NCBI GenBank assembly: GCA_016188575.1
Contig: JACPHN010000063.1
Coordinates: forward strand, 1-39,164
Reading direction: 5' to 3'
Length of the DNA stretch: 39,164 nt
From: Candidatus Schekmanbacteria bacterium
GTDB lineage: Bacteria > CSSED10-310 > JACPHN01
The notes under the pieces are model-generated. The model did no database searches, was not told the origin of the DNA, and saw only the letters and a list, made by a program, of their open reading frames with translations. Of this stretch, positions 3,052 through 39,164 are shown piece by piece; the stretch's first letter is position 1, and every line of letters begins with the position of its first letter. Position numbers and translations under genes: made by a program.

Positions 3052-3125
3052 CCCTCCCCCGCTTGCGGGGGGGTCTTCGTGATGCGCATTCCGCGCAGCT
3101 TGCAGTCGACAAAGCGGTGGATTCA
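3052..3125 (+). repeat. Dispersed repeat copy A with GC-rich hairpin, between convergent genes
   Basis: The C-rich/G-rich palindrome CCCCCGC-TT-GCGGGGG spans about 3056-3071. It is followed at 3073-3125 by a 53-bp segment that aligns without gaps (about 43 of 53 identical by hand count) to 27383-27435. The hairpin lies between two convergent genes ending at 3002 and 3236 and may also act as a transcription end. The 3003-3235 interval otherwise shows no gene. Confidence 0.6.
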
Positions 3126-20615: not shown

Positions 20616-20916
20616 TTGCAGGTCCCTGTTCGCCCGAGCCGAGGGGCACAGGTCACCCTTGCAGGTGCCTCATCCGTCGTTCCGAGGGGCATCTGTCACG
20701 ATTGCCGTCGCCTGTCCGGACGGCCCGACAGGCACCTGCAAGGGTTGCAGGCATACGAGCAAGCGCGCCGAGTGGCATCGGTCATCGTTACCTGTGGCCC
20801 CTGGCCCGCGCCGAGGGGTCCTTGCAGTCCTTGCAGGTGCCACATCCGACGCCCGGAGGGGCTCATGTCACGATTGCAGGTGCCTGTCCGGACGGCCCGA
20901 CAGGCACCTGCAATCA
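20616..20916. repeat. Seven-unit 43-bp tandem repeat with a 172-bp higher-order period
   Basis: Units start at 20616, 20659, 20702, 20745, 20788, 20831 and 20874, exactly 43 bases apart. Most begin TTGCAGG and share a central CCGAGGGGC-like block; units 2 and 6 end TGTCACGA. Units 3 and 7 are nearly identical, and units 2 and 6, and 1 and 5, are also alike, so a four-unit (172-bp) block seems to have been duplicated. Unit 7 is a near-perfect dyad: a 15-bp arm (20874-20888) pairs fully with 20899-20913 across a 10-base loop. The period is not a multiple of three, so it is not a coding repeat. Confidence 0.9.
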
Positions 20917-27229: not shown

Positions 27230-27530
27230 TCCGGCAGCTCCCTCCGGAGCCCCGCCGAGGGCGGCGGGGCGCGGTTGTTGTCGCTGACTATAGCACTCCG
27301 CCGCACGGTTTGCGGTAGCCACACCGTTGCTGAATCGCACCTGCTCACCTCCGCCCGGGTGCGGGGAGAGGTCAGGTGGGGTGTCTTCGTGATGCGCTTT
27401 CCGCGCAATTCGCAGGCGCACAGGAGGTGGATTCACATATGCATCACGCCTTGACGGGCGGCGAAATCGCTGCGATCCTCTGGCCGCAGCGATCCCACCA
27501 GCTCGAAAATCAGAGGCCCGGAGGCGTCCC
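27230..27530. other. Divergent spacer between the acyl-CoA ligase and cas1
   Basis: This 301-bp spacer carries the divergent starts of the acyl-CoA ligase (minus) and cas1 (plus). It contains a GC-rich imperfect hairpin at about 27345-27375 and the dispersed repeat copy B. I see no ORF with support. GGAGGCGT just before 27531 is the cas1 ribosome binding site. No convincing cas promoter can be picked out by eye. Confidence 0.5.
27383..27435 (+). repeat. Dispersed repeat copy B
   Basis: This 53-bp segment aligns without gaps to 3073-3125, starting GTCTTCGTGATGCGC in both and ending GGTGGATTCA in both, with about 43 matches. Both copies follow a GC-rich hairpin, so hairpin plus tail may form one repeat family. 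Confidence 0.65.
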
Positions 27531-28589
27531 ATGCAGCTCGTCATCAACACCTTTGGCGCGAGCCTTCGCAAGACCGGAGACCGCTTCGTGATCCAGGCCG
27601 GCGAGCGCTCGCTGGCAGTCTCGGCGAAGAAAGTGCAGAGCATTCTGATCGCCACCGCGGCGTGCTTCTCCACCGATGCCATCGAGCTCGCGAGCCAGCA
27701 CAACATCGACGTCATCTTTCTGGACAAGTACGGCGATCCCTATGGGCGCGTATGGTTGCCGCGACTGGGCAGCACGGCGGCGATCCGCAGGCGCCAGATC
27801 GAGATCGCCCGCGAGCCCGAGGGGTTGGCCCTGGTGCGCGACTGGATCGTCACCAAGCTGCGGAACCAGGAGGAGTTTCTTGACGAGCTGTGGCGGCGGC
27901 GCCCGGGCACGGATGAGCTGTTCGCCGCCGCCGTGGAGACGCTGCGCGACAGCCGCCGTAAGCTCGGCGCGCTGACCGGCGGGATCGACGAGCTCCGCGG
28001 CACGATCATGGGTATCGAGGGGAGCGCCGCCCGCGCCTATTTCCAGTGTCTGGGGGCGCTCATGCCGGAACCCTACGCCTTCTCCACGCGCAGTCGCCAC
28101 CCCGCCAAGGACCCCTTCAACGCCACCCTCAACTACGCCTACGGTGTCCTCTACAGCATGGTCGAGCGCGCCTGCATCGTCGCCGGCCTCGACCCCTTCG
28201 TCGGCTTCCTGCACACCGACAACTACAACAAGCAGTCGCTCGTCTTCGATCTCATCGAGCCGTTCCGCATCATCGGCGAGCGCACCGCCGTCCTGATGTT
28301 TACGGGCCGGCGCGCTCACCAGTCCTACTTCGCGGAGATTCCGGCAGGCGTCACCATCAGCAAGGACGGCAAGGCGGCGCTGATCGAGTCGCTCAACCAG
28401 CGGCTCGACCGCGCCGTGCGCTACGGGGTCCAGGCAGACAAACGCAAGCGGCGTAACGTCAAACAACGCCACGTCGTCCAGCTCGAGGCGCACGCGCTGG
28501 CCAATGCGCTGATCGGGCGCCGCGACTTGCCGACGATCGTCGAGACCCGCGAGCTGTGGAAAGAAGACGCCGAGCCGGGCGCGAGCTGA
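27531..28589 (+). CDS. cas1: CRISPR integrase Cas1, type I-B
   Basis: A 352-residue Cas1, the integrase subunit that inserts new spacers at the leader end of the array with Cas2. The N-terminal beta domain runs to about residue 75 (QLVINTFGASLRKTGDRF at the start). The catalytic helical domain has Glu163 in GIEGSAARAY, His228 in GFLHTDNYNK and Asp240 in VFDLIEPFR, the expected metal-binding triad. NYAYGVLYSMVE is the usual core helix. The length (about 330-350) and the TDNYNK...DLIEPFR spacing fit Cas1 of type I-B/I-C loci. ATG is preceded by GGAGG. It opens the adaptation module, ahead of cas2 and cas4; in most loci cas4 comes first. Confidence 0.95.
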   Translation: MQLVINTFGASLRKTGDRFVIQAGERSLAVSAKKVQSILIATAACFSTDAIELASQHNIDVIFLDKYGDPYGRVWLPRLGSTAAIRRRQIEIAREPEGLALVRDWIVTKLRNQEEFLDELWRRRPGTDELFAAAVETLRDSRRKLGALTGGIDELRGTIMGIEGSAARAYFQCLGALMPEPYAFSTRSRHPAKDPFNATLNYAYGVLYSMVERACIVAGLDPFVGFLHTDNYNKQSLVFDLIEPFRIIGERTAVLMFTGRRAHQSYFAEIPAGVTISKDGKAALIESLNQRLDRAVRYGVQADKRKRRNVKQRHVVQLEAHALANALIGRRDLPTIVETRELWKEDAEPGAS

Positions 28590-28600
28590 GAGGGGCGCTG

Positions 28601-28690
28601 GTCGACGGGGCGCGGGTCGACGGGGCGCGGGTCGACGGGGCGCGGGTCGACGGGGCGCGGGTCGACGGAGCGCTGGTTGACGGGGCGCAA
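28601..28690 (+). repeat. Six-unit 15-bp tandem repeat between cas1 and cas2
   Basis: Units of GTCGACGGGGCGCGG start at 28601, 28616, 28631 and 28646; those at 28661 and 28676 are slightly diverged. A partial unit precedes 28601. Each unit contains a SalI-like palindrome, GTCGAC. The period is five codons and lies in frame with cas2, reading VDGAR. The cas2 start is more likely at 28787, which makes this non-coding. Confidence 0.9.
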
Positions 28691-28786
28691 GCATTTGAAG
28701 CCGATCTGCGTCAATCGCTTGCACCTTGTAAACTGCGCTTGGGCGTGGCACAATCTTCTCCCGGGCAACAACAAGGAGGCGTGACT

Positions 28787-29077
28787 GTGCTGACGTGGGT
28801 CATCTACGACATCTCTGCCGACAAGACGCGCACACGCATCGCCAAAGCTTGCCTCGACTACGGGCTCTACCGCGTGCAAAAGAGCGTCTTCCTCGGCGAC
28901 ATCGATCGCAACCAGGTCGACGAGATCCTGCTGTTCTCCAAGGAAATCCTCGACGCCGCGGCCGATTCCTTCTACGTCTTCCCTATGTGTCGCGAGGATT
29001 TCAAGCGCGTCCGCATCCACGGCCAGGGTTTCGACCGGCAGCTCGTCGCCGACGAGATCCTCACCAAGATCATCTGA
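28787..29077 (+). CDS. cas2: CRISPR adaptation protein Cas2
   Basis: A 96-residue Cas2, the dimeric partner that clamps two Cas1 dimers in the spacer-integration complex. The ferredoxin-like fold begins with VIYDISADKTR, where Asp8 is the conserved residue, followed by ACLDYGLYRVQKSVFLGDI, the typical RVQxSVF segment. It ends in a helix after DSFYVFPMCREDFKRV. I chose the GTG at 28787 because AAGGAGG lies 7 bases upstream. A GTG at 28781 is only one base from that sequence, and an in-frame extension back through the tandem repeat lacks a ribosome binding site. cas4 starts 14 bases after the stop. Confidence 0.93.
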   Translation: MLTWVIYDISADKTRTRIAKACLDYGLYRVQKSVFLGDIDRNQVDEILLFSKEILDAAADSFYVFPMCREDFKRVRIHGQGFDRQLVADEILTKII

Positions 29078-29091
29078 GCCGCGCGGGCGCG

Positions 29092-29676
29092 ATGGACGTC
29101 TACATTTCCCCGAGCCACATCGTAGAATACCTCTACTGCCCGCGGTTCACCTACTTTGAGCTCGTTCTGGCTGTGCCGCAGCGCGAAGAGCTACGCTTCA
29201 AGGTCATGAAAGGGCGGGAGGTGCATCACGAGCGCGAGAAGGTGAACCCGCACTATCTGCGCCGCCGGCTCGGCGTGGTCGCGCGCCGGCATGCGGTGGA
29301 GATGTCCTCGGCCGAGCTCCGGGTCAAGGGCATCGTCGACGAGGTGCTGGAGCTCGCCGACGGCACCATGGCGCCGCTCGACTACAAGTTCGCCGAAGAC
29401 ACCGGCCACCTGTACGAAAACCGCAAGATGCAGTCGGTGCTCTACGGGCTGTTGATCCGCGACGTTTTCGGGCGCGACGTGCGCGCCGGCTACCTTTGTT
29501 ATGTGCGCTCGGAGCACAAGATCGAGGAGATCCCGTTCACCGCGGACGACTTCGCGGCGGCGCGGCAGGCGGTCGACGAGGTGTTCGCTATCATCCAACA
29601 GGGGGCGTTCCCGCAGGCGACGCGGTGCGCAGCGCGTTGCGAGGACTGTACCTACCGCAACCTTTGCGTGCAGTGA
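29092..29676 (+). CDS. cas4: CRISPR-associated nuclease Cas4
   Basis: A 194-residue Cas4, a RecB-family exonuclease with an iron-sulfur cluster that trims prespacers and helps choose those next to the right PAM. The four cluster Cys are Cys16 (YLYCPRF) and Cys183, Cys186 and Cys192 in the C-terminal ARCEDCTYRNLC; Cys179 is also nearby. The nuclease residues are Asp83 in KGIVDEV and Asp97-x-Lys99 in PLDYKFA, with His45/His46 (EVHHER) at the first site. ATG follows cas2 by 14 bases. The gene is complete, and its stop lies only 7 bases before the first base of the IscB element's structured RNA, so the insertion has not damaged it. Confidence 0.93.
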   Translation: MDVYISPSHIVEYLYCPRFTYFELVLAVPQREELRFKVMKGREVHHEREKVNPHYLRRRLGVVARRHAVEMSSAELRVKGIVDEVLELADGTMAPLDYKFAEDTGHLYENRKMQSVLYGLLIRDVFGRDVRAGYLCYVRSEHKIEEIPFTADDFAAARQAVDEVFAIIQQGAFPQATRCAARCEDCTYRNLCVQ

Positions 29677-29683
29677 GGCAACC

Positions 29684-30005
29684 GTCACCTTCTCCATCCA
29701 ACCGCCGAAAGGCGGTATGGATGGAGCTTGGGGGAGCAATCCCCCGGGCTCCGAGGTGACCAGCCCCAGCCAGGAGGAGAAGTGATGAGCTGATCTTCAA
29801 CGGGCTACGTCGGGCGGGTGACGACACCCGGGAGTGCGAGCGCCAGCTCCCGGCCCTGTCGCCCCGGATCATGAGCGGCCAAGGAGACCACCGCGAAGGT
29901 CCGGGGTACTCAAGCCTGTCCGACATCGGCGAGGCGCACGTTACCGCCCCTTCGGGGGCGAGAACCCAAGGTAACAGGGCCCCTTCGGGGGACAGGAGGA
30001 AGCGA
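29684..30005 (+). ncRNA. HEARO / IscB omegaRNA
   Basis: The 322 bases before iscB fold strongly and match the HEARO RNA plan that accompanies iscB. A 6-bp closing stem, GTCACC (29684-29689) with GGTGAC (29755-29760), encloses a 9-bp stem (29692-29700 with 29718-29726) capped by ACCGCC-GAAA-GGCGGT, plus a 5-bp G/C stem (29730-29734 with 29741-29745). Further on, GGTCCGGGGTACTCAAGCC near 29900-29918 is reminiscent of conserved HEARO sequence. At the 3' end, GTTACC (29940-29945) pairs with GGTAAC (29970-29975) around a C4-TTCG-G4 hairpin, and a second CCCC-TTCG hairpin follows directly before the iscB ribosome binding site. In this family the guide is the sequence just 5' of the scaffold, about 29668-29683, inside the cas4 end. 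Confidence 0.85.
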
Positions 30006-31322
30006 ATGGTCAATCGGGCGTTGGTCCTCGACAGCGAGCGCAAGCCGCTCATGCCGTGCCACCCGGCGCGGGTGAGACGGCTCCTCCGCGACGGCAAGGC
30101 GGCGGTCTTCCGTCGCGAGCCGTTCACGATCATTCTTCGAGAGCGAGTCGGAGGAGAGACCCAGCCCATCGAAGTGAAGCTCGATCCCGGATCGAAGACG
30201 ACGGGCATCGCCCTCGTCGCTCGGGGCAAGCGAGGCCGGAAGGTCGTCTTGGCCGCCGAGATCACCCATCGGAGCGGAGAGATCCGCGACGCCATGACGA
30301 AGCGCCGGGCGCTCCGGCAGGGGCGACGATACCGGAAGGTCCGGCACCGAGCGCCCCGGTTCCTGAACCGGCGGCGGCCCGAAGGCTGGCTCCCTCCGTC
30401 ACTCGAGAGCCGGGTCCGCCAGGTCGAGACCTGGGCGCGGCGGCTCGCTCGCTTTACGCCGGTCACGGCGGTTGAGGTCGAGACCGCGCGGTTCGATACG
30501 CACGTCCTGTCGGTCGGCTACGACCTCGAGGGCGTCGAGTTTCAGCGCGGCACGCTCTTCGGATGGGAGCTCCGCGAGTACGTCTTCCACCGGGACGGCC
30601 ACCGGTGTCGGTACTGCGGGGGCGAGTCGGGAGTTCCCGTGCTCGAGCTCGAGCACGGGATCCCGAAGGCCCGGGGCGGAAGCGACCGCGTCGCCAATCT
30701 CGTGACGGCCTGCCGGGCGTGCAACCAGGCCAAGGGCAACCGAACGGCGACCGAATGGGCCGAGGCCCTCGCAGGGAGCCCGACGAAGCTCGATCGCGTC
30801 CGCCGGGCTTATGCGACGAAGGTCGCCGTTGGCAAACACCCGAGCCTCCGGGACGCGGCGGCGATCAATGCGACCCGATACGCCATCGGGGACCGACTGA
30901 AGACCCTGGGGATCCCAGTCGGGTTCCGGACGGGCGGGCGGACGAAGATGAACCGAACGACCCAGGGGTACCCGAAGCGCCACTGGATCGACGCGGCGTG
31001 CGTCGGGGAGACGGCACATCGCGTCAGGCTCGACCCGGGGATGACGATCCTGCGGATCCGGGCGAGAGGCCACGGGACACGCAAGCGGTGCGGGACAGAC
31101 GCCCATGGGTTCCCGATTCGGCACGCGCCTCGAGCCAAGCGCTTCCTCGGGTTTGCGACCGGAGACCTGGTACGTGCGGTGATTCCGGTCGGGAAGTATC
31201 GGGGCATCCATGTCGGCCGGATCGCGATCCGGCACCGCCCGAGCTTCAAGCTCGCCAGGTTCGACGTCCATCCGAAGTACCTTGCGCTCCTCCAGAGGGC
31301 GGACGGCTATGAGTACGCGTAA
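30006..31322 (+). CDS. iscB: IscB RNA-guided nuclease (Cas9 ancestor family)
   Basis: A 438-residue IscB that uses the upstream omegaRNA to find and cut double-stranded DNA. Domains in order: the PLMP domain (about 1-50, ERKPLMPCHPARVRRLLRDGKA); RuvC-I with VKLDPGSKTTGIAL, catalytic Asp60; an Arg-rich bridge helix (about 98-125); RuvC-II with AVEVETARFD, Glu157; the HNH domain with Cys201/Cys204, His217 in LEHGIP and Cys236/Cys239, with Asn231 in the metal loop; and RuvC-III with HWIDAACVG, Asp329. The TAM-interacting region follows. All catalytic positions are present, so it looks active, with length typical of IscB. ATG has AGGAGG 6 bases upstream. Its stop lies just after an in-frame start that would serve cas6. 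Insertion here is unusual. Confidence 0.95.
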   Translation: MVNRALVLDSERKPLMPCHPARVRRLLRDGKAAVFRREPFTIILRERVGGETQPIEVKLDPGSKTTGIALVARGKRGRKVVLAAEITHRSGEIRDAMTKRRALRQGRRYRKVRHRAPRFLNRRRPEGWLPPSLESRVRQVETWARRLARFTPVTAVEVETARFDTHVLSVGYDLEGVEFQRGTLFGWELREYVFHRDGHRCRYCGGESGVPVLELEHGIPKARGGSDRVANLVTACRACNQAKGNRTATEWAEALAGSPTKLDRVRRAYATKVAVGKHPSLRDAAAINATRYAIGDRLKTLGIPVGFRTGGRTKMNRTTQGYPKRHWIDAACVGETAHRVRLDPGMTILRIRARGHGTRKRCGTDAHGFPIRHAPRAKRFLGFATGDLVRAVIPVGKYRGIHVGRIAIRHRPSFKLARFDVHPKYLALLQRADGYEYA

Positions 31323-32079
31323 CGAAGGCAAAAGCACCGCTTCCCCACCCCCCAACCGCTGCGCGGTGGGGGAGCACCCGCGGCGCGATCCGGTGGAAGA
31401 GCTGACCTACCTGGAGATCGCCGAGGCGCGGTTGCGCTTTCCGCGCGTGCTGCTCCCGAGCGAGACGCCGAAGCTCAGGGGCTACCTCGGGACCGCGTTC
31501 AGCGAGGCCGAGCTGCTGCACAACCACAACGCGGCGGGCGGGCTGCGCTACGATTACCCGCGCGTGCAGCTCAAGGTGGTGGCCGAGGAAGCGCTGCTCG
31601 TCGGCATCGGCGAGGGCGTGCCGATCGTCGTGGACGTGTGGTCACGGTGCGACGTCGCGCGCCTCGGCGACGAGCTGCTGCCGATTCTCGAGGCGACGCT
31701 GAACCGGCGGCGCGCCGCCATCGGCGCCCTGGAGCAGCCGCTGCGCTACACCTTCCGCAGCCCCTGGCTCGGCCTGAACCAGGACAACCACTTCGCCTAT
31801 GCCTGCACCACCAACGAGGAGGTGCGCGAGCAGCTCCTGCGGCGCGTGCTGATCGGCAACTGCCTGTCGCTCGCCAAGAGCTTCGGGCATCGGGTGGCGA
31901 CGCGGCTTGCCGCCGACTGCCGGGCGCTGCACGCGCTGCCCTGCCGCCTCAAGGGCGTTTCGATGCTGGGCTTTCGCGGCAGCTTCTCTCTCAACTTCTC
32001 TATTCCCGACCGCCTCGGTATCGGCAAATCCGTGTCGCGAGGCTTCGGCATTGTGGAGCGATGGAACGGTGATTATTGA
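31309..32079 (+). CDS. cas6: CRISPR pre-crRNA endonuclease Cas6
   Basis: A Cas6 that cuts the repeat RNA to make crRNAs and often stays on the 3' hairpin. The C-terminal half shows the two hallmark elements: LKGVSMLGFRGSFSLNF and the Gly-rich loop GIGKSVSRGFGIVE. LLHNHNAAGG offers candidate catalytic His residues near the start of the fold. Two starts are possible. The ATG at 31309 lies within iscB, overlaps its stop and gives 256 residues; the first 28 are encoded by the IscB terminus and right-end hairpin and have no Cas6 character. The GTG at 31393 gives 228 residues beginning EELTYLEIAEARLRF, a normal Cas6 start, but has no Shine-Dalgarno sequence. The GTG is probably the original start. 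The stop overlaps the cas8b start. Confidence 0.85.
   Translation: MSTRNEGKSTASPPPNRCAVGEHPRRDPVEELTYLEIAEARLRFPRVLLPSETPKLRGYLGTAFSEAELLHNHNAAGGLRYDYPRVQLKVVAEEALLVGIGEGVPIVVDVWSRCDVARLGDELLPILEATLNRRRAAIGALEQPLRYTFRSPWLGLNQDNHFAYACTTNEEVREQLLRRVLIGNCLSLAKSFGHRVATRLAADCRALHALPCRLKGVSMLGFRGSFSLNFSIPDRLGIGKSVSRGFGIVERWNGDY
31339..31375. repeat. Terminal hairpin at the right end of the IscB element
   Basis: GCTTCCCCACC (31339-31349) pairs with GGTGGGGGAGC (31365-31375) with one G-T wobble, enclosing a GC-rich loop. Subterminal imperfect hairpins of this kind mark the ends of IS200/IS605-like elements. It lies 17 bases after the iscB stop and about 18 bases before the likely original start of cas6. 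Confidence 0.65.
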
Positions 32080-34150
32080 GGACCTGATACGGCTCGGGCG
32101 CGCGCTGCTGGCCGGGGAGCTGGAAGCGCGGGTGCTGGTGGAGATGCTCACCGACGTGAGCGAGACGACCACGAAGAACTTTTATCAGAATGTTTTCGTC
32201 GTCGAGCTTGGAGACGGCGGTGGCGAGGCCGGTTTGCCGGTGGTGTTGCCGGTGCAACGGTGGGGGGACGAGGTGCCGGTGCCGGACAAGCCGAAGAAGA
32301 CGGAGCTCCGCGTCGACGTGGAGCGGGCGGCCGGGGCGCCAATTGTGCTGCCGAGGGGAGGCAATCCGCTGGTGCCGCAGGGGCGCTACGGTTTGCCCGC
32401 CTACCCGCTGTATGAGGCGCACGTCCGCGGTTTCGCCGAGGGCGCGGGCAAGGCGGCGGAGTTTCTGGCGGGACGCGTAAAGCGAACGCAGGGGCTGACC
32501 CTGGCACCGGCGGTGCTGCACGCCGCGGCGGAAGGCCTGCACGCGGAGGCGAAGCGGCTCGCGCTCGACTCAAAGCAAAAGGTGCTGGGCGTGCTGGTGC
32601 TGGCGCGGTGCGGCGAGGCGGACCCGTACCGGTACGCGCCCGGCACCTCATCGGACCGGGCGATCGGCCGCAGCGCGAAGCGCCCGGGGGAACAGATCCT
32701 GCCGCGCGCGGAGGTGTTCGGCGAACGCCTCTGGGAGGGCAAGATCGAGGAAGGGCGATCGGCCGGAGCGCGGGACGGCAGGTGCTCGATTTGCGGCGGG
32801 CCGGGCCCTGTGGTCTCGGCGTACAACAAGGCCTGGCCGTGGCTCACGCCGACCTGGACCTGCCCGCTGCCGCACGCGGGCGACAAGGATCGGATGGTCG
32901 AGATGGTCGCGCTCGACGACGCGTGCTACCGCGCGTTGACCGCGGGCGCCTCCGTATTCTCCAAGCTGTCCCGCCAGGTGCACGTCGAGGTGACCCGCGA
33001 GCTGTTCTCGCCGGTCGCCGACCCGGAGGCCCGGCGCATCGCGGGCGAAAAATCGATCACGGATATCCCGAAGATCCTCGGCGGCGCCTTCGTGGTTCCC
33101 GTGCATCGCGACCTGACCGAAGATCCCGAGGAGGCGGCTGATCTGTGCCGGCTCACGCTGGAAATGATGGCGGAGGATGGCAAGGGTGCCGCGGCCGCGG
33201 GCCGCATGGGCCATCATCTCGCCGACATCGTCGGTTTTGATTGTTGGTTGCCGCGGGCAGCGGCCCAAAGAGCCGAATACCGGATGAAGATCCTCTACTA
33301 TTCGGGGGATCCGAGCCGTGCCGACATTCACCTGCGCGCGGTCATCGACGACGTCGCTCCCACCGTCATGCCGCGTCTGGAGGCGCTGGCCCGCCGCACC
33401 GGCGACGAAGCGGTGGCGCTGGCCCGCGAAATCATCCGCAAGCCATCCGACAAGCAGCTCGCGTTTTACAAACGCCGCTTCGGCGCGGTGCCCTACCTGC
33501 TCGGCCGCGGCTACGGCGGTGCCTACCTCTGGGAGCGGCTGCAGTCCGCCTTTCACCGCCGCCCGATGGACGCGGCGCGGCCGACCGCCAACAGCGCCCA
33601 CCGGCTCGCGGGTCTCGCCGCCCACTATCCCGATTCCAACCCGCAGGTCGCCGAGGAGGTCGTTTTCTTCCTCGCGTTTCGCGGTTTTCTCGAGCGCTAC
33701 AATAACCAGCTCGCCAACACCAGGAGCACCCCGATGTCGATGCGGCCTTGGAGAGAGTTGCTATCCGTTGTTTTCGAGGCTCCGATCGAGGAGATTCATT
33801 TCCAGAGCCCCGCGGAGATCGGCTTCGCCGCGGGCGCGCTCCTGCGGCGCTTCGGCCGCTGGTATTATCACGCTACCGATCGCGATCTGCTCAAGCATCG
33901 CGTCATGACGTTCGGCTCGGATTTGTCGCCGCTGGCGGTCTGGCATCGCGGCGTGGCGCGCATCTTCGACGTGGCCGCGCGCCATGACAAGATCAAGATG
34001 CCGGAGGACTTCCGGCGCCGCGTCGGCGCGATTCTGGCGGAGCTCGACCGCCTGGCAGACGGCGTTCGCTCCGACCGCGATGGGTTCATGACGGGTTTTT
34101 GGTCCGGGCATGCGCTTGAACCATCCACGCAGCACAAGGAGGAAGTCTAA
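32069..34150 (+). CDS. cas8b: Type I-B Cascade large subunit Cas8b (Csh1-like)
   Basis: A 693-residue large subunit that recognises the PAM and recruits Cas3. It matches the TM1802/Csh1 type as I recall it: VETLTDV-like opening (LVEMLTDVSETTTKNFYQNVFVV), a Cys pair at 239 and 242 in RCSICGGPGPV that suggests a zinc site, and a C-terminal helical domain of about 140 residues. The start is a GTG at 32069, overlapping the cas6 stop by 11 bases; the nearby ATG at 32061 is in another frame. Its stop directly precedes the cas7 ATG. A second start within the gene at 33734 has its own ribosome binding site and would make the small subunit. Sequence identity across Cas8 families is low, so the subtype rests also on the Csh2-type Cas7. 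Confidence 0.85.
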   Translation: MIIEDLIRLGRALLAGELEARVLVEMLTDVSETTTKNFYQNVFVVELGDGGGEAGLPVVLPVQRWGDEVPVPDKPKKTELRVDVERAAGAPIVLPRGGNPLVPQGRYGLPAYPLYEAHVRGFAEGAGKAAEFLAGRVKRTQGLTLAPAVLHAAAEGLHAEAKRLALDSKQKVLGVLVLARCGEADPYRYAPGTSSDRAIGRSAKRPGEQILPRAEVFGERLWEGKIEEGRSAGARDGRCSICGGPGPVVSAYNKAWPWLTPTWTCPLPHAGDKDRMVEMVALDDACYRALTAGASVFSKLSRQVHVEVTRELFSPVADPEARRIAGEKSITDIPKILGGAFVVPVHRDLTEDPEEAADLCRLTLEMMAEDGKGAAAAGRMGHHLADIVGFDCWLPRAAAQRAEYRMKILYYSGDPSRADIHLRAVIDDVAPTVMPRLEALARRTGDEAVALAREIIRKPSDKQLAFYKRRFGAVPYLLGRGYGGAYLWERLQSAFHRRPMDAARPTANSAHRLAGLAAHYPDSNPQVAEEVVFFLAFRGFLERYNNQLANTRSTPMSMRPWRELLSVVFEAPIEEIHFQSPAEIGFAAGALLRRFGRWYYHATDRDLLKHRVMTFGSDLSPLAVWHRGVARIFDVAARHDKIKMPEDFRRRVGAILAELDRLADGVRSDRDGFMTGFWSGHALEPSTQHKEEV
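33734..34150 (+). CDS. cas11: Small subunit Cas11 from an internal start in cas8b
   Basis: An in-frame ATG at 33734 is preceded by AGGAG at 33722-33726, a spacing of 7, which is as good as any ribosome binding site in this operon. It would give a 138-residue helical protein beginning MSMRPWRELL and ending at the cas8b stop. Internal translation of Cas11 from cas8 is established for types I-B, I-C and I-D, and the product size fits those cases (roughly 120-150). Cas11 subunits line the belly of Cascade and hold the displaced strand. The start is read from sequence; its use is inferred. Confidence 0.7.
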   Translation: MSMRPWRELLSVVFEAPIEEIHFQSPAEIGFAAGALLRRFGRWYYHATDRDLLKHRVMTFGSDLSPLAVWHRGVARIFDVAARHDKIKMPEDFRRRVGAILAELDRLADGVRSDRDGFMTGFWSGHALEPSTQHKEEV

Positions 34151-35161
34151 ATGAGCGACAATACTGTGCGATCCGGCGAGATCCTTTTCATCAAGGCGGT
34201 CAAGGATGGCATTCCCAACCGCGATCCGCTGCGCGACAGCGACGCGCGCCGGCTCTTCGGCGAGGAGGACGGGCGCATTTCCCTGTCCGACGTGAGCATC
34301 AAGCGTGACGTGCGCGATTACGTGCTCGCCCGCCACGCCGACGGCGGTCCCGGGCGCGACCGCTTCGTGTTCGTGCGCAAGGAATTCAGCGACGGCGGCA
34401 AGCTGCTCGGCCGGGAGAACCTGGCAAAGACCCTGCTGGCGCGCGCCGGGCGCAGCGTCAAGGACACGGACAAGGCGTCGATCCTGTCGGTGGCTTTCGA
34501 CGCGCGCGCGTTCGGCATCGTGTTCAGCGTCGGCGACAAGGCGTTCAATCAGGTCGGCCCGGTGCAGTTCGGCTGGGCGCATTCACTGCATCCGGTCGAG
34601 ACGCGGTACACACAGGGCACCGTGGTGATGCCGTCCAAGGACACGAACACGGCGGCGGACGCGGGCGCGGAGGCGGAGGGCAGCACGCAGGGGACGATCT
34701 GGACGATGTACACGGTGCCGTTCGCGGTCTTCGCGATGCCAGCGGTGATCAGCAGCAGCATCGCCCGCGACACCGGGCTGTCGGCGGCTGACCTGGAGCT
34801 GTTGCTCGAAGCGCTGTGGCGGGGCACCTCGGCGCGGCAGGCGCGCGGCCGCGGGTTGCAGCGGCCGCTGCTGCTGCTCCACGTCGAGTACCGCGACCCG
34901 TTCGACCGCATCGGTTACCTCGAGGAAGGAATCGCGCTCGAACCCGGGCGAGAGTCGTGGCTCGGCGGCAAGCAGCCGACGTCGGTCGCGGACGTGTCGC
35001 TCGATGTGCGCGGTCTGGCGGGAGTGCTCGAGAAGAACGTCGGGCGCATCGCGCGGGCGCGGGTGTGGCGCGACGAGCGGCTGGCGATCCGCGGCGAGCT
35101 GCCTGCCGAAGTCAGCGTGTGGCCGCCGTGCGACCCGAGCGCGGCGGAGCTGGGGAGATAA
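34151..35161 (+). CDS. cas7: Cascade backbone protein Cas7, Csh2 family
   Basis: A 336-residue Cas7 that polymerises along the crRNA as the Cascade backbone. The opening matches the Csh2 family of type I-B: SGEILFIKAVKDGIPNRDPLRDSDARRLFGE followed by LSDVSIKRDVRDYV. These are the RRM core and the SxxSIKRxxR segment. The middle thumb region includes FNQVGPVQFGWAHSLHPVE and VVMPSKDTN. LLLLHVEYRDPFDRIGYLEEGI lies near the C-terminal part. The ATG follows cas8b directly (stop at 34148-34150) with AAGGAGGAAG upstream, so translation is coupled. The family fit is strong and is the best single evidence for subtype I-B. cas5 begins 6 bases downstream. Confidence 0.95.
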   Translation: MSDNTVRSGEILFIKAVKDGIPNRDPLRDSDARRLFGEEDGRISLSDVSIKRDVRDYVLARHADGGPGRDRFVFVRKEFSDGGKLLGRENLAKTLLARAGRSVKDTDKASILSVAFDARAFGIVFSVGDKAFNQVGPVQFGWAHSLHPVETRYTQGTVVMPSKDTNTAADAGAEAEGSTQGTIWTMYTVPFAVFAMPAVISSSIARDTGLSAADLELLLEALWRGTSARQARGRGLQRPLLLLHVEYRDPFDRIGYLEEGIALEPGRESWLGGKQPTSVADVSLDVRGLAGVLEKNVGRIARARVWRDERLAIRGELPAEVSVWPPCDPSAAELGR

Positions 35162-35167
35162 CCGCTC

Positions 35168-35875
35168 ATGCGGGTGCTGAGCTTCGACCTGCGTGGCGCG
35201 ATTGCGCACTTCCGCCGTCCCGACACGTTCGGCACACAATCCACCTACCCGATTCCGACGCCCACGGCGCTGAGCGGTCTTGCTGCCTCGGTCCTGGGCC
35301 TGCCGGAGCTGCCGGAGCGCGCCATGCTCGGCCTGGAGCTGCTCGCCCCCGTGCGCACCGTGGCGCAGGAGCTGAGCCTGCACGGCAAGACGTGGGTGAG
35401 CGGCGGGGATGCCGCCGGTTTCTCGCGGCCCACGTCCATCGAGCTGGTCGTCGCGCCGCGGTATCGGGTGCATTACCATGGCCCGCTGCTCGACGAGCTG
35501 TCGGCGCGCATTCGCGACAGCCGCAGCACCTACCATACCTACCTGGGCGCGGCCTTTTGCCTGACGTTTCCGCTGTTCGTCGCCGAAGGCGAGCGGCCGG
35601 CGATGGCAGCGGCGCCGGAAGGCCAAGGCGCGATCACCTGCCGGTCGGCCGTCCCATCGGCGGCCGTCGCGCGCCTGGAATGCGCCGAGGAGCACCAGTA
35701 TTGCCGCGTCGGGGGGGTGCCCGTGCGCGTCGAGCCGGGCCGGAAGTTCCGCGGGACGACGAGTGTCCTGTTCGAGTCCGCCGGCGGTCCGATGCGCATC
35801 GTGCCGCGAGCGAGCCCGGACGCGAGCTGGGTGTTCTGCGACGGCGGCGACGGGACGTGGATCTGCCTGTGGTAA
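35168..35875 (+). CDS. cas5: Cascade subunit Cas5, type I-B
   Basis: A 235-residue Cas5 that caps the 5' handle of the crRNA next to Cas8. The N-terminus reads MRVLSFDLRGAIAHFRRPDTFGTQSTYPIPTP, the typical beta-strand followed by the PxxxxPTPTALSG segment, and GLAASVLGLPE is the following helix. A C-terminal stretch gives the beta-hairpin thumb region. The size matches Cas5 of I-B loci, and cas6 is separate, so this Cas5 is not expected to process RNA as in type I-C. It starts 6 bases after the cas7 stop and overlaps the cas3 start by 7 bases. The ribosome binding site is weak (GGGGAG). Confidence 0.92.
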   Translation: MRVLSFDLRGAIAHFRRPDTFGTQSTYPIPTPTALSGLAASVLGLPELPERAMLGLELLAPVRTVAQELSLHGKTWVSGGDAAGFSRPTSIELVVAPRYRVHYHGPLLDELSARIRDSRSTYHTYLGAAFCLTFPLFVAEGERPAMAAAPEGQGAITCRSAVPSAAVARLECAEEHQYCRVGGVPVRVEPGRKFRGTTSVLFESAGGPMRIVPRASPDASWVFCDGGDGTWICLW

Positions 35876-38298
35876 CGCCGTTTGCACAGTGCATCGCGCG
35901 GCCGCCCGAGGAGGGGCGGCCGCGGCTGTTGGTGGAGCACCTGACCGCGGTGGCCGCCGGGTGTGGGTCGCGCGACGGCGACCCCGCCGAGCGCCTCGGC
36001 CACCTTGCGGGATTGCTCCATGACGCCGGAAAGGCGACGACAGGCTGGCAGCGCTACATCCGGGAAGGTAAGGGAAAGGGGCCGCCGCATGCGCCGCTGG
36101 GCGCGGCGCTTTTTGCCTACTGCGCGGCGCCGCTCGTTGGGGTATGGGCGGAGGGCAACCGCGCGGCACGGGAGGCGCTCGAAGACCTGGTGCTGGACTG
36201 GACGCGCGCGGTCTATGACCATCATGGCGTGCTCGAGAACCTCGAGGATCTGCCGCCATGGGAGGCCACGGCGCACCCGATCACGGTTCGGGACCTGGTG
36301 GGCGATCTCGATCTCGCGGGAGCGCTGAGGCTGGTCGCGGATGCGTTTGCCGGCTTTTCGGGCACAGCGGAGGATTGCCGCGACTGGCTAGACAGATGCG
36401 AGCGGGACTGGGCGCGAGCGAAGAAGCTCACGCGCGCCAGGGTGCTCGAGCGCGACCTGGGGCGCGCTCCGGCGGCGCTGGCGGTGGCGGGGCGCGGGCT
36501 GCGTCTGGCCGGATTATCCGCGCGGCTGGTGCGCGCGGATCGCGGCGACGCGGGACAGATGTCGCGCTTGCCGCTGTTACAGGAGCTGGCTCTCGAGGCC
36601 GGCGAGGCGCTCGTGACGACGTGCCGTGAAAAGGCGGCGGCAGCGCTAGGGGAGGGGGCCAACGCCGCGCTCGTCGGCGCCCGCGGGGAGCTCCAGGCGG
36701 CCGCGGTGGCGCGCTATCGCCGGCACCCCGGCGCCAGCCTGTTCACCCTGCTCCTGCCGACCGGCTACGGCAAGACGCTGGCGGCGTTGCGGGTAGCGCT
36801 GGCGGCCGTGGCGGCCGGGCGCTGTGACCGGATCATTTACGTAGCGCCCTACCTTTCCATCCTCTCGCAGGCGGCACGCGAGATCGCCTCGGCGACGGGC
36901 CTGGAGGTGTTCGAGCACCACCACCTGACGGTCGCGTCGGAGGCCGCGGACGTCGCCGACGAGATGGGGCCGCTCGACAACTGGGAGGCTCCCGTCCTGG
37001 CGACGACGTTCAACCAACTCTTCCGTGCCTTGTTTCCGCGGCGCGCGCAACACACGCTCCGCCTGGGAGCGCTCGACCGCGCCTTCATCATCGTCGACGA
37101 GCCGCAAATTATCGACAGCGCAGTGTGGGCTGCCTTCGTCCGTGCCCTGGCCGCACTCTGCGAGCTGCGGAGCTGTCAGGTCCTCTTTGCCACAGCCACG
37201 CTGCCGCCCATCGCCCCGGCCGCGGGCGCCGAGCCCGTTCACCTTGCCGGGGAGCTGCCGCCGGCACGACCCGGGCGCTATCGGGTGCTTCCGAGGAGCG
37301 TGCCGTTCGCCGCCCGGGAGGTGGCGGAGGCCGTGCGGCTGGCGCGGGGCGGCGACGGCGCGGTTTCGGGGCCACCACGCTCGGTGGCGGTCGTCATGAA
37401 TACGATCGCGGATGCCGTGGCGGTATGGCGGGCTGTCGAGGAAAGCATCGACGATGGCGACGGCGAGCGGTTCTTTCTCAGCGCCATGATGCTCCCCGGA
37501 CACAAGGCTCTGACCATCGCGCAGATCGCCGCGGCGCTGAAAGCGGGATCCGGTCCCATCGCCATCTGCACCCAGGTCATCGAGGCGGGCGTCGATCTCA
37601 GCTTCGACGAGATCCTCCGCGCCTCGACCATTCTGCCCTCGGTAGCACAGGTAGCGGGTCGGGCGAATCGGCATGGCGAAAAGCAGCGGGCGCGCGTGAC
37701 GGTCTTTCCTTTCGTCCGCGGCGACGGCAAGGACTCGCGGCCGTATGTCTATCGCGATGCCGTGACCAGGGAAGAGACCGACGCGCTGCTGGGGGCATCG
37801 CCGGAGCTCCAGGAGGAGGAGATGGGCGAAGCGCTCGCGCGCTACTATGATCGCGTGTGGCAGCGATCCCAGGGCACCGCCTGCCTGGAGCGTTTTCGCG
37901 AGGCCGCGCGCGGGAATTGGAAGGAGCTTGGCGGCTTGCAGCCGTACTCCGACGGCCCCCCGCGCCGCGAGCTGCTGGTCCCGCGCGAAGCCGAGGGCAT
38001 GAGCGCCGCCATGTGCCGGCTGCGAGAGCGATTCGCGCCGGAAGGTGTTGACCAGCTCATCGACCGGGTGCAGAACCCGAGGTTCCTCAAGCGGCTCGCC
38101 TTCGCGGACCGGAAGCGGCTGTGGGCGCTGGTTCGGCAGTATTGCGTGGCGGTGCCGGAGCGGATCGCCCGCGACCAAGGCGCGGCGCTCACCGAGTGGC
38201 TCGCGGTGCTCAAGGACCTCAAGGATTATGACGAGCGGCTGGGGATGGCGATTCACTTCGCCGAAAACGTGGAGGAGGCATCGTGCACGATCTTCTGA
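35869..38298 (+). CDS. cas3: Type I effector Cas3, HD nuclease-helicase fusion
   Basis: An 809-residue Cas3 that nicks and processively degrades DNA bound by Cascade. The HD nuclease is N-terminal: His24 (VEHL), LLHDAGK with His51/Asp52, and VYDHHGVLEN near residue 115. The SF2 helicase follows: Walker A LPTGYGKT near residue 297, the DEAD-box variant DEPQ near 410, FATATLPP near 440, and motif VI QVAGRANRHG near 593, with a C-terminal accessory domain to the end. The start is uncertain: the GTG at 35869 overlaps the cas5 stop, a GTG at 35857 is also open, and neither has a clear Shine-Dalgarno sequence. An open frame extends upstream to 34816 but only as an overlap with cas7 and cas5. It is the last cas gene before the array. 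Confidence 0.93.
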   Translation: MVTPFAQCIARPPEEGRPRLLVEHLTAVAAGCGSRDGDPAERLGHLAGLLHDAGKATTGWQRYIREGKGKGPPHAPLGAALFAYCAAPLVGVWAEGNRAAREALEDLVLDWTRAVYDHHGVLENLEDLPPWEATAHPITVRDLVGDLDLAGALRLVADAFAGFSGTAEDCRDWLDRCERDWARAKKLTRARVLERDLGRAPAALAVAGRGLRLAGLSARLVRADRGDAGQMSRLPLLQELALEAGEALVTTCREKAAAALGEGANAALVGARGELQAAAVARYRRHPGASLFTLLLPTGYGKTLAALRVALAAVAAGRCDRIIYVAPYLSILSQAAREIASATGLEVFEHHHLTVASEAADVADEMGPLDNWEAPVLATTFNQLFRALFPRRAQHTLRLGALDRAFIIVDEPQIIDSAVWAAFVRALAALCELRSCQVLFATATLPPIAPAAGAEPVHLAGELPPARPGRYRVLPRSVPFAAREVAEAVRLARGGDGAVSGPPRSVAVVMNTIADAVAVWRAVEESIDDGDGERFFLSAMMLPGHKALTIAQIAAALKAGSGPIAICTQVIEAGVDLSFDEILRASTILPSVAQVAGRANRHGEKQRARVTVFPFVRGDGKDSRPYVYRDAVTREETDALLGASPELQEEEMGEALARYYDRVWQRSQGTACLERFREAARGNWKELGGLQPYSDGPPRRELLVPREAEGMSAAMCRLRERFAPEGVDQLIDRVQNPRFLKRLAFADRKRLWALVRQYCVAVPERIARDQGAALTEWLAVLKDLKDYDERLGMAIHFAENVEEASCTIF

Positions 38299-38831
38299 GG
38301 CGGTGCTCGTCCGGAATACCGGACGTAGCTCCTGTGACACGTAGCGACGCCTGATGGCCTGGTAATGCGCTCCGCAACGCCTTTCCGTTTCGTTTCCCCC
38401 CACTTATCGCGTGTCCCACCTGGCACGCCCAAACGAACTACCCAGCAATTCCGGCGAGAACCGGTTGCATGTTGACCAGCCAGGGGCATTATCCCCGCCC
38501 TCGCCGCCCCAGAAGAACGTCGCTGACAACGCCGAATCCAGCGAAAACGCCGTTGCCATCAACGACGCCCTTCTGAGGGCGCGCCACAGAGCTCTCAGTC
38601 GTCGCGTCTTCCGGTCGCAGCGCCGACAATTTCTCCGTCCGATTTATCGAGCCCACCGCCCATCTCCTCATCGGAACGCGTTTCTCATGCGGCTTTCAGG
38701 CCAAAAAAACCTGCGCAGGTCGTCCGCGATGGCCTGGATTTTTTCGTTCTGCCGGCGTATTCTGCTGAAAAAGAGGCAACGAGAATGCCGCCGAAATGAC
38801 GCTCTGATGCCCATTTCGGGCGCCGCATGAG
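38299..38831 (+). promoter_or_regulatory. CRISPR leader region
   Basis: 533 bases lie between cas3 and the first repeat, upstream of an array whose repeats end ATTGAAAC on the plus strand, so this side should be the leader that drives pre-crRNA and receives new spacers. It is less GC-rich than the cas genes near its end. At 38703-38720 an A7 run abuts a perfect 12-bp palindrome, ACCTGCGCAGGT. No clear promoter hexamers are visible. An open frame at 38411-38830 has no supported start and is not called. Confidence 0.6.
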
Positions 38832-39164
38832 GCCTCTATGCTCAATCCAGAAGAACAAGGATTGAAACATTTTCTCTGGCGCCTTCGCGGCCGAGAAATC
38901 CACCAGCCTCTATGCTCAATCCAGAAGAACAAGGATTGAAACTAGCTTAGATAATGGTAGGATGCTGTATTTCAGCACGCCTCTATGCTCAATCCAGAAG
39001 AACAAGGATTGAAACATGCAACAGTGCTTCCTCGTGCCAATGAAGCATTGGGCCTCTATGCTCAATCCAGAAGAACAAGGATTGAAACCATGTAGCCTGA
39101 GCATCTTGCCAGTTTTCTTAATCTTGCCTCTATGCTCAATCCAGAAGAACAAGGATTGAAACAT
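38832..39164 (+). CRISPR. Type I-B CRISPR array, five repeats in view, continuing past the window
   Basis: Five identical 37-nt repeats start at 38832, 38906, 38979, 39052 and 39126. Each begins GCCTCTATGC and ends ATTGAAAC. Positions 11-17 (TCAATCC) pair with 28-34 (GGATTGA) across a 10-base loop, and the last 8 bases are the expected crRNA 5' handle. Spacers are 37, 36, 36 and 37 bases (38869-38905, 38943-38978, 39016-39051, 39089-39125). The window ends two bases into the fifth spacer. Perfect repeats next to the leader are consistent with a functional array. Spacers 2-4 are visibly AT-richer than the host, as expected of phage or plasmid DNA. None matches another place in the window that I can find by eye. 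Confidence 0.97.

Follow-up and report, generated by a model that had tools for sequence, protein, structure and literature searches.

An IscB/HEARO element directly before the cas6 start codon of a type I-B CRISPR operon, very probably a passenger placed by its target rule

The closest described systems to the locus analysed here are the IscB/HEARO elements (OMEGA systems of the IS200/IS605 type; RF02033 and NF040563), in which a HEARO RNA, or omegaRNA, lies directly 5' of iscB. CRISPR-associated IscB exist as well, and the first description of the HEARO RNA reportedly remarked that insertion takes place before ATGA or GTGA. For IsrB, which has no HNH domain, the published target-adjacent motifs are NTGA and, in BbIsrB, NTGG (PMC9581776). 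Cas9d (type II-D) adjoins its own CRISPR array and tracrRNA (PMC9755519), and the title of a work on CRISPR-associated IscB is cited in PMC12991159. For TnpB, another nuclease of this IS superfamily, gene-drive behaviour against IS-free plasmids has been reported (PMC11870625). Type I-B loci with an IS256-like element inside their CRISPR arrays have been described (PMC8473940).

The window, a whole contig of 39,164 nt from a Candidatus Schekmanbacteria bacterium, holds an element that resembles the IscB/HEARO elements in its full-length HEARO directly 5' of iscB, its RRXRR, RuvC and HNH regions, its multiple copies, the guide position 5' of the scaffold and its landing before an RTGA-type motif. 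Unlike the usual elements, the window subfamily lands at GTGGA and not at RTGA, the window copy lies inside a cas operon, and it has no transposase of its own. Both junction motifs seen here match those published for IsrB, but the window IscB has an HNH domain. Cas9d and CRISPR-associated IscB belong to the same nuclease superfamily as the window IscB; unlike the Cas9d arrangement, the array here lies over 7 kb from iscB as part of the I-B operon, and an ordinary HEARO serves as the RNA. The IS256-like case is likewise a mobile element in a type I-B locus, but it is a different transposon and it sits in the array.

The element and the operon that holds it

The features of the locus, all on the + strand, are as follows.

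27531..28589, +, cas1 (Cas1b; Pfam, NCBIfam, PADLOC)
28781..29077, +, cas2 (Cas2b), GTG start likely at 28781
29092..29676, +, cas4 (Cas4b), I-B model match
29661..29683, +, left flank of the element: 3' end of cas4, cas4 stop and GGCAACC, with GAGG as the likely native cas6 ribosome-binding site
29684..29944, +, HEARO/omegaRNA scaffold (Rfam RF02033, 83.7 bits)
30006..31322, +, iscB, 438 aa, RuvC and HNH residues present, from ATG 30006 to a TAA stop
31309..31392, +, element tail with a hairpin; its ATG overlaps the iscB end and is in frame with cas6 (possible 28-aa leader)
31393..31397, +, GTGGA landing motif (TAM-like NTGG) containing the cas6 start codon; same junction motif in the C181 and C241 copies
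31393..32079, +, cas6 (Cas6b), GTG start, I-B model match
32069..34150, +, cas8b (PADLOC Cas8b, 593.7 bits), start inferred from sequence
34151..35161, +, cas7b, I-B model match
35168..35875, +, cas5b, I-B model match
35875..38298, +, cas3 (Cas3b), I-B model match
38825..39162, +, CRISPR array of at least 5 repeats, reaching the contig end

The preliminary description had placed an intact HEARO/omegaRNA and iscB in a complete type I-B operon, flanked by cas4 and cas6, and this was confirmed, with the element running from 29684 to 31392. Its right end, first given as 31375, was moved to 31392 by comparison with the sister copies; the next base opens the cas6 GTG codon. The match to RF02033 is full-length and just above the gathering score (83.7 against 83 bits, E 1.3e-15). 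The protein scored 372.8 bits with the NCBIfam guided_IscB model (NF040563; cut-off 175), carries the Pfam domains RRXRR and HNH, and matches solved IscB structures by sequence. It shows the features of IscB, with RuvC split by HNH, an RRXRR/bridge helix and the omegaRNA directly upstream, and a weak match to the HNH stretch of Cas9d. Residues D60, E157, H217 and D329 stand where they had originally been placed, numbering from ATG 30006. Because its C-terminal domain did not match the solved structure, GTGGA could not be linked to the TAM-reading residue known from DtIsrB.

No Y1 transposase lies inside the element, and there are eight Y1 transposase matches elsewhere in its own genome; the element is at most a non-autonomous member of the IS200/IS605 type. 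By IscB anatomy, the left flank at 29661..29683 would be the guide segment of the omegaRNA. No copy of the CRISPR repeat was found in the omegaRNA or near iscB.

The operon reads cas1-cas2-cas4-[HEARO-iscB]-cas6-cas8b-cas7-cas5-cas3-array. As had been claimed, the flanking cas genes are all intact and on the same strand; their frames are open and matched the I-B models Cas1b, Cas2b, Cas4b, Cas6b, Cas8b, Cas7b, Cas5b and Cas3b. With Cas8b, Cas7b, Cas5b, Cas6b, Cas3, Cas1, Cas2, Cas4 and an array, the locus is of type I-B. The gaps are 14 nt between cas2 and cas4, 0 between cas8 and cas7, 6 nt between cas7 and cas5 and -1 between cas5 and cas3; cas6 and cas8 overlap. No terminator-like site was found between cas4 and cas6. 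The suggestion that IscB and its omegaRNA are co-transcribed with the operon stands as probable, judged by orientation and tight spacing.

Several repeats were also seen. A 15-nt unit (GGGGCGCGGGTCGAC) is present in 6.5 tandem copies at 28592-28688, between the cas1 stop and the likely cas2 start. A 58-nt imperfect direct repeat (81%) occurs at 3068-3125 and 27378-27435, the second copy about 100 nt before cas1, and 20632-20915 contains two direct repeats of 110 nt, inside which inverted repeats occur.

Other copies and the landing motif

The genome itself (9.2 Mb, 275 contigs) gave 20 IscB and 15 HEARO matches in two subfamilies. These make up about a dozen element copies, and IscB copies or fragments occupy unrelated sites. 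Sisters of the window copy, with 82-92% DNA identity, lie on eight contigs (C117, C131, C157, C177, C181, C201, C210 and C241). All are truncated, by contig ends or internal deletions, and the window copy is the only complete one of its subfamily in the assembly. The second subfamily has four copies with long open iscB frames (C5, C90, C162 and C218). No two of the listed copies share a left flank, even immediately before the HEARO, which is what a guide drawn from the flank would predict. Of 13 left flanks in this genome, 9 end in a Shine-Dalgarno-like sequence, compared with a background of 20% (p 1.5e-4).

At the right end, three window-subfamily copies are alike through ...CACCCGCGGCGCGATCCG (GATCCG) and then GTGGA, and diverge after it; the GTGGA rule of this subfamily rests on these three copies, two of them near-identical. 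The GTG is the cas6 start in the window; in C181 it opens an ORF of 840 aa whose beginning is signal-like, and in C241 it opens only 29 codons. In the second subfamily ATGA follows the right end in all four resolved copies, each ATG opening an ORF of 360 to more than 500 aa; in C5, further in-frame ATGs lie shortly before the junction. The iscB stop TGA of this subfamily (L041, L043, L044, L045) comes from the landing ATGA itself, giving a 4-nt overlap with the host start. In the window and in L119 and L120, the open frame from the ATG at the iscB end would give the host protein a leader of 28-29 aa.

The rule extends to relatives. RTGA is kept in the G134 relatives wherever the junction was resolved, and of the four full copies of G054, three are followed by GTGA and one (L109) by GTAA. 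Among cyanobacterial relatives with a readable iscB end, RTGA stands 80-111 nt downstream in 22 of 22 (background 31%, p 9e-12), the distance range having been picked after the result of the first test was seen. That first test, which took the first RTGA anywhere after iscB (p 0.05), caught RTGA inside the tail hairpin and was replaced. In L117, a G134 locus, two element right ends stand in tandem at a spacing of 89 nt, and a ribosome hibernation factor-like gene follows the second one immediately.

Empty sites were found for two cyanobacterial relatives. The joined site of the G414 copy is empty in six congeners, with GTGA present and without duplication; this element landed between an AAGGG..GTT leader and a GTG start. 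The site of a G054 copy, about 7 codons inside a gene, is empty in G344 (94% identity), again without duplication. The empty sites carry the motif and the motif thus belongs to the target. A fixed short motif beside the insertion and no target duplication are the marks of IS200/IS605-type insertion, and start codons mark the landing place exactly in some cases and approximately in others. GTGGA fits NTGG, and by analogy the junction motif would be the TAM of the window IscB.

Related cas loci

A search for the cas4-iscB-cas6 order in related loci, the check put forward in the preliminary description, gave no support for a conserved arrangement: by tblastn, iscB was found in none of 26 loci with Cas1 relatives (Cas1 identity 24-58%), and no HEARO in the 20 of them that were scanned. 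The closest operon, L046 of a Planctomycetota MAG, reads cas1-cas2-cas6-cas8-cas7-cas5-cas3, uninterrupted and with the same effector gene order. The nearest Cas8 relative is only about 41% identical, and cas4 is placed elsewhere there. No Cas8 relative other than that of L046 was found in 294 genomes of its phylum, and none in plasmids; Cas7 relatives were absent from viral contigs. In 145 genomes there were seven Cas6 relatives outside the genome itself, with 27-40% identity over most of the protein, and the three loci read (L025, L026, L028) had no cas4 beside cas6.

The relatives searched yielded no close sister locus, either filled or empty, and the genome itself no empty copy of the cas4/cas6 junction. 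From the sequence, the empty site is predicted to be cas4-TGA-GGCAACC joined directly to GTG-GAA-GAG of cas6, with a 7-nt gap, so that an element-free allele would read ...CGTGCAGTGAGGCAACC-GTGGAAGAGCTG.... Such a gap, with GAGG before the start, resembles the other tight junctions of the operon.

Passenger, partner or burden

The locus is best explained by a single insertion event, in which an IscB/HEARO element (IS200/IS605-type OMEGA), non-autonomous and present in multiple copies, entered the operon; for the CRISPR system it is very probably a tolerated passenger. The preliminary description had pointed to the position at the seam of the operon and the shared orientation, and had allowed for either a neutral passenger or a role. 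Since the motif is often the downstream start codon and reads one way, position and orientation follow from landing before RTGA or GTGG and need no special reason; the landing rule likewise leads to a place between genes, in the direction of the operon, with intact neighbours.

That IscB and its omegaRNA gained a CRISPR role, as a second effector, an aid to adaptation or a regulator, and were kept by selection is very unlikely. The copy is intact, lies in the orientation of a complete operon and is probably transcribed with it, no terminator-like site intervening, but the element is absent from all related loci examined, it has many further copies in its own genome, its landing rule accounts for position and orientation, and its guide would simply be the flank, the omegaRNA being free of CRISPR-repeat copies. 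The gene is not found at the same place in related loci, as a conserved cas accessory gene would be; nor does it have the adjacent array with repeats serving IscB that marks CRISPR-associated IscB, the array lying behind cas3. Capture by the I-B operon is very unlikely too; IscB and its omegaRNA would then be made from the cas transcript, translation of Cas6 would be coupled to that of IscB, and the pair would act either as an additional RNA-guided nuclease or as a switch through which crRNA maturation is tied to the expression of IscB. A role in CRISPR was not supported, with the element family at many unrelated sites of its own genome and in 0 of 26 related Cas1 loci. The preliminary description had held that chance insertion would be marked by equally intact copies at many unrelated sites and by uninterrupted sister loci; the many sites and the uninterrupted loci were found, whereas the other copies of the window subfamily are incomplete.

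An effect on the operon short of a new role was also weighed. The insertion displaced the native cas6 ribosome-binding site by 1.7 kb, and a polar or translational block might have crippled a CRISPR system now on its way out; this is improbable, as the downstream cas genes are all open, the array is present, and the host genes immediately downstream of many copies of the family have stayed open. Rewiring of Cas6 expression, with the native ribosome-binding site removed and translation made dependent on iscB via ATG 31309 and its 28-aa leader, is possible if rather doubtful, and is compatible with the passenger explanation. AGAGGG stands upstream of ATG 31309 and no good Shine-Dalgarno sequence lies close before GTG 31393; the distance from ATG to GTG, 84 nt in the window and 87 nt in both L119 and L120, is in each case a multiple of three without a stop. 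The two siblings are near-identical, however, so that the frame is tested independently only once, with a chance of one in three, and a relic copy with an internal deletion does not keep the frame.

For the tolerated passenger a course of events can be proposed. The element would have landed precisely before the cas6 GTG, splitting the start codon from its ribosome-binding site, and may have been moved in trans by one of the Y1 transposases of the genome. The omegaRNA and IscB would then be expressed off the cas operon transcript, and the guide, copied from the left flank (the cas4 end), is predicted to end in GTGAGGCAACC. This guide may direct IscB to the element-free junction beside the GTGGA target-adjacent motif; the empty junction would be cut and then repaired from a filled copy, by which the element would be restored or spread (retention or homing), the kind of action reported for TnpB on plasmids. 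The filled allele would be spared because the element separates the guide match from the motif. Translation of Cas6 would continue, starting either at the cas6 GTG or at the in-frame ATG that overlaps the iscB end.

An apparently meaningful gene order can thus arise from an insertion rule. The junctions suggest that the HEARO/IscB target motif, RTGA or GTGG, is often a start codon and that the elements slip between the ribosome-binding site and the start, in the direction of the gene. Slipping in before start codons explains the positions in operons, would let the elements be transcribed by the host, and leaves the frame of the downstream gene open.
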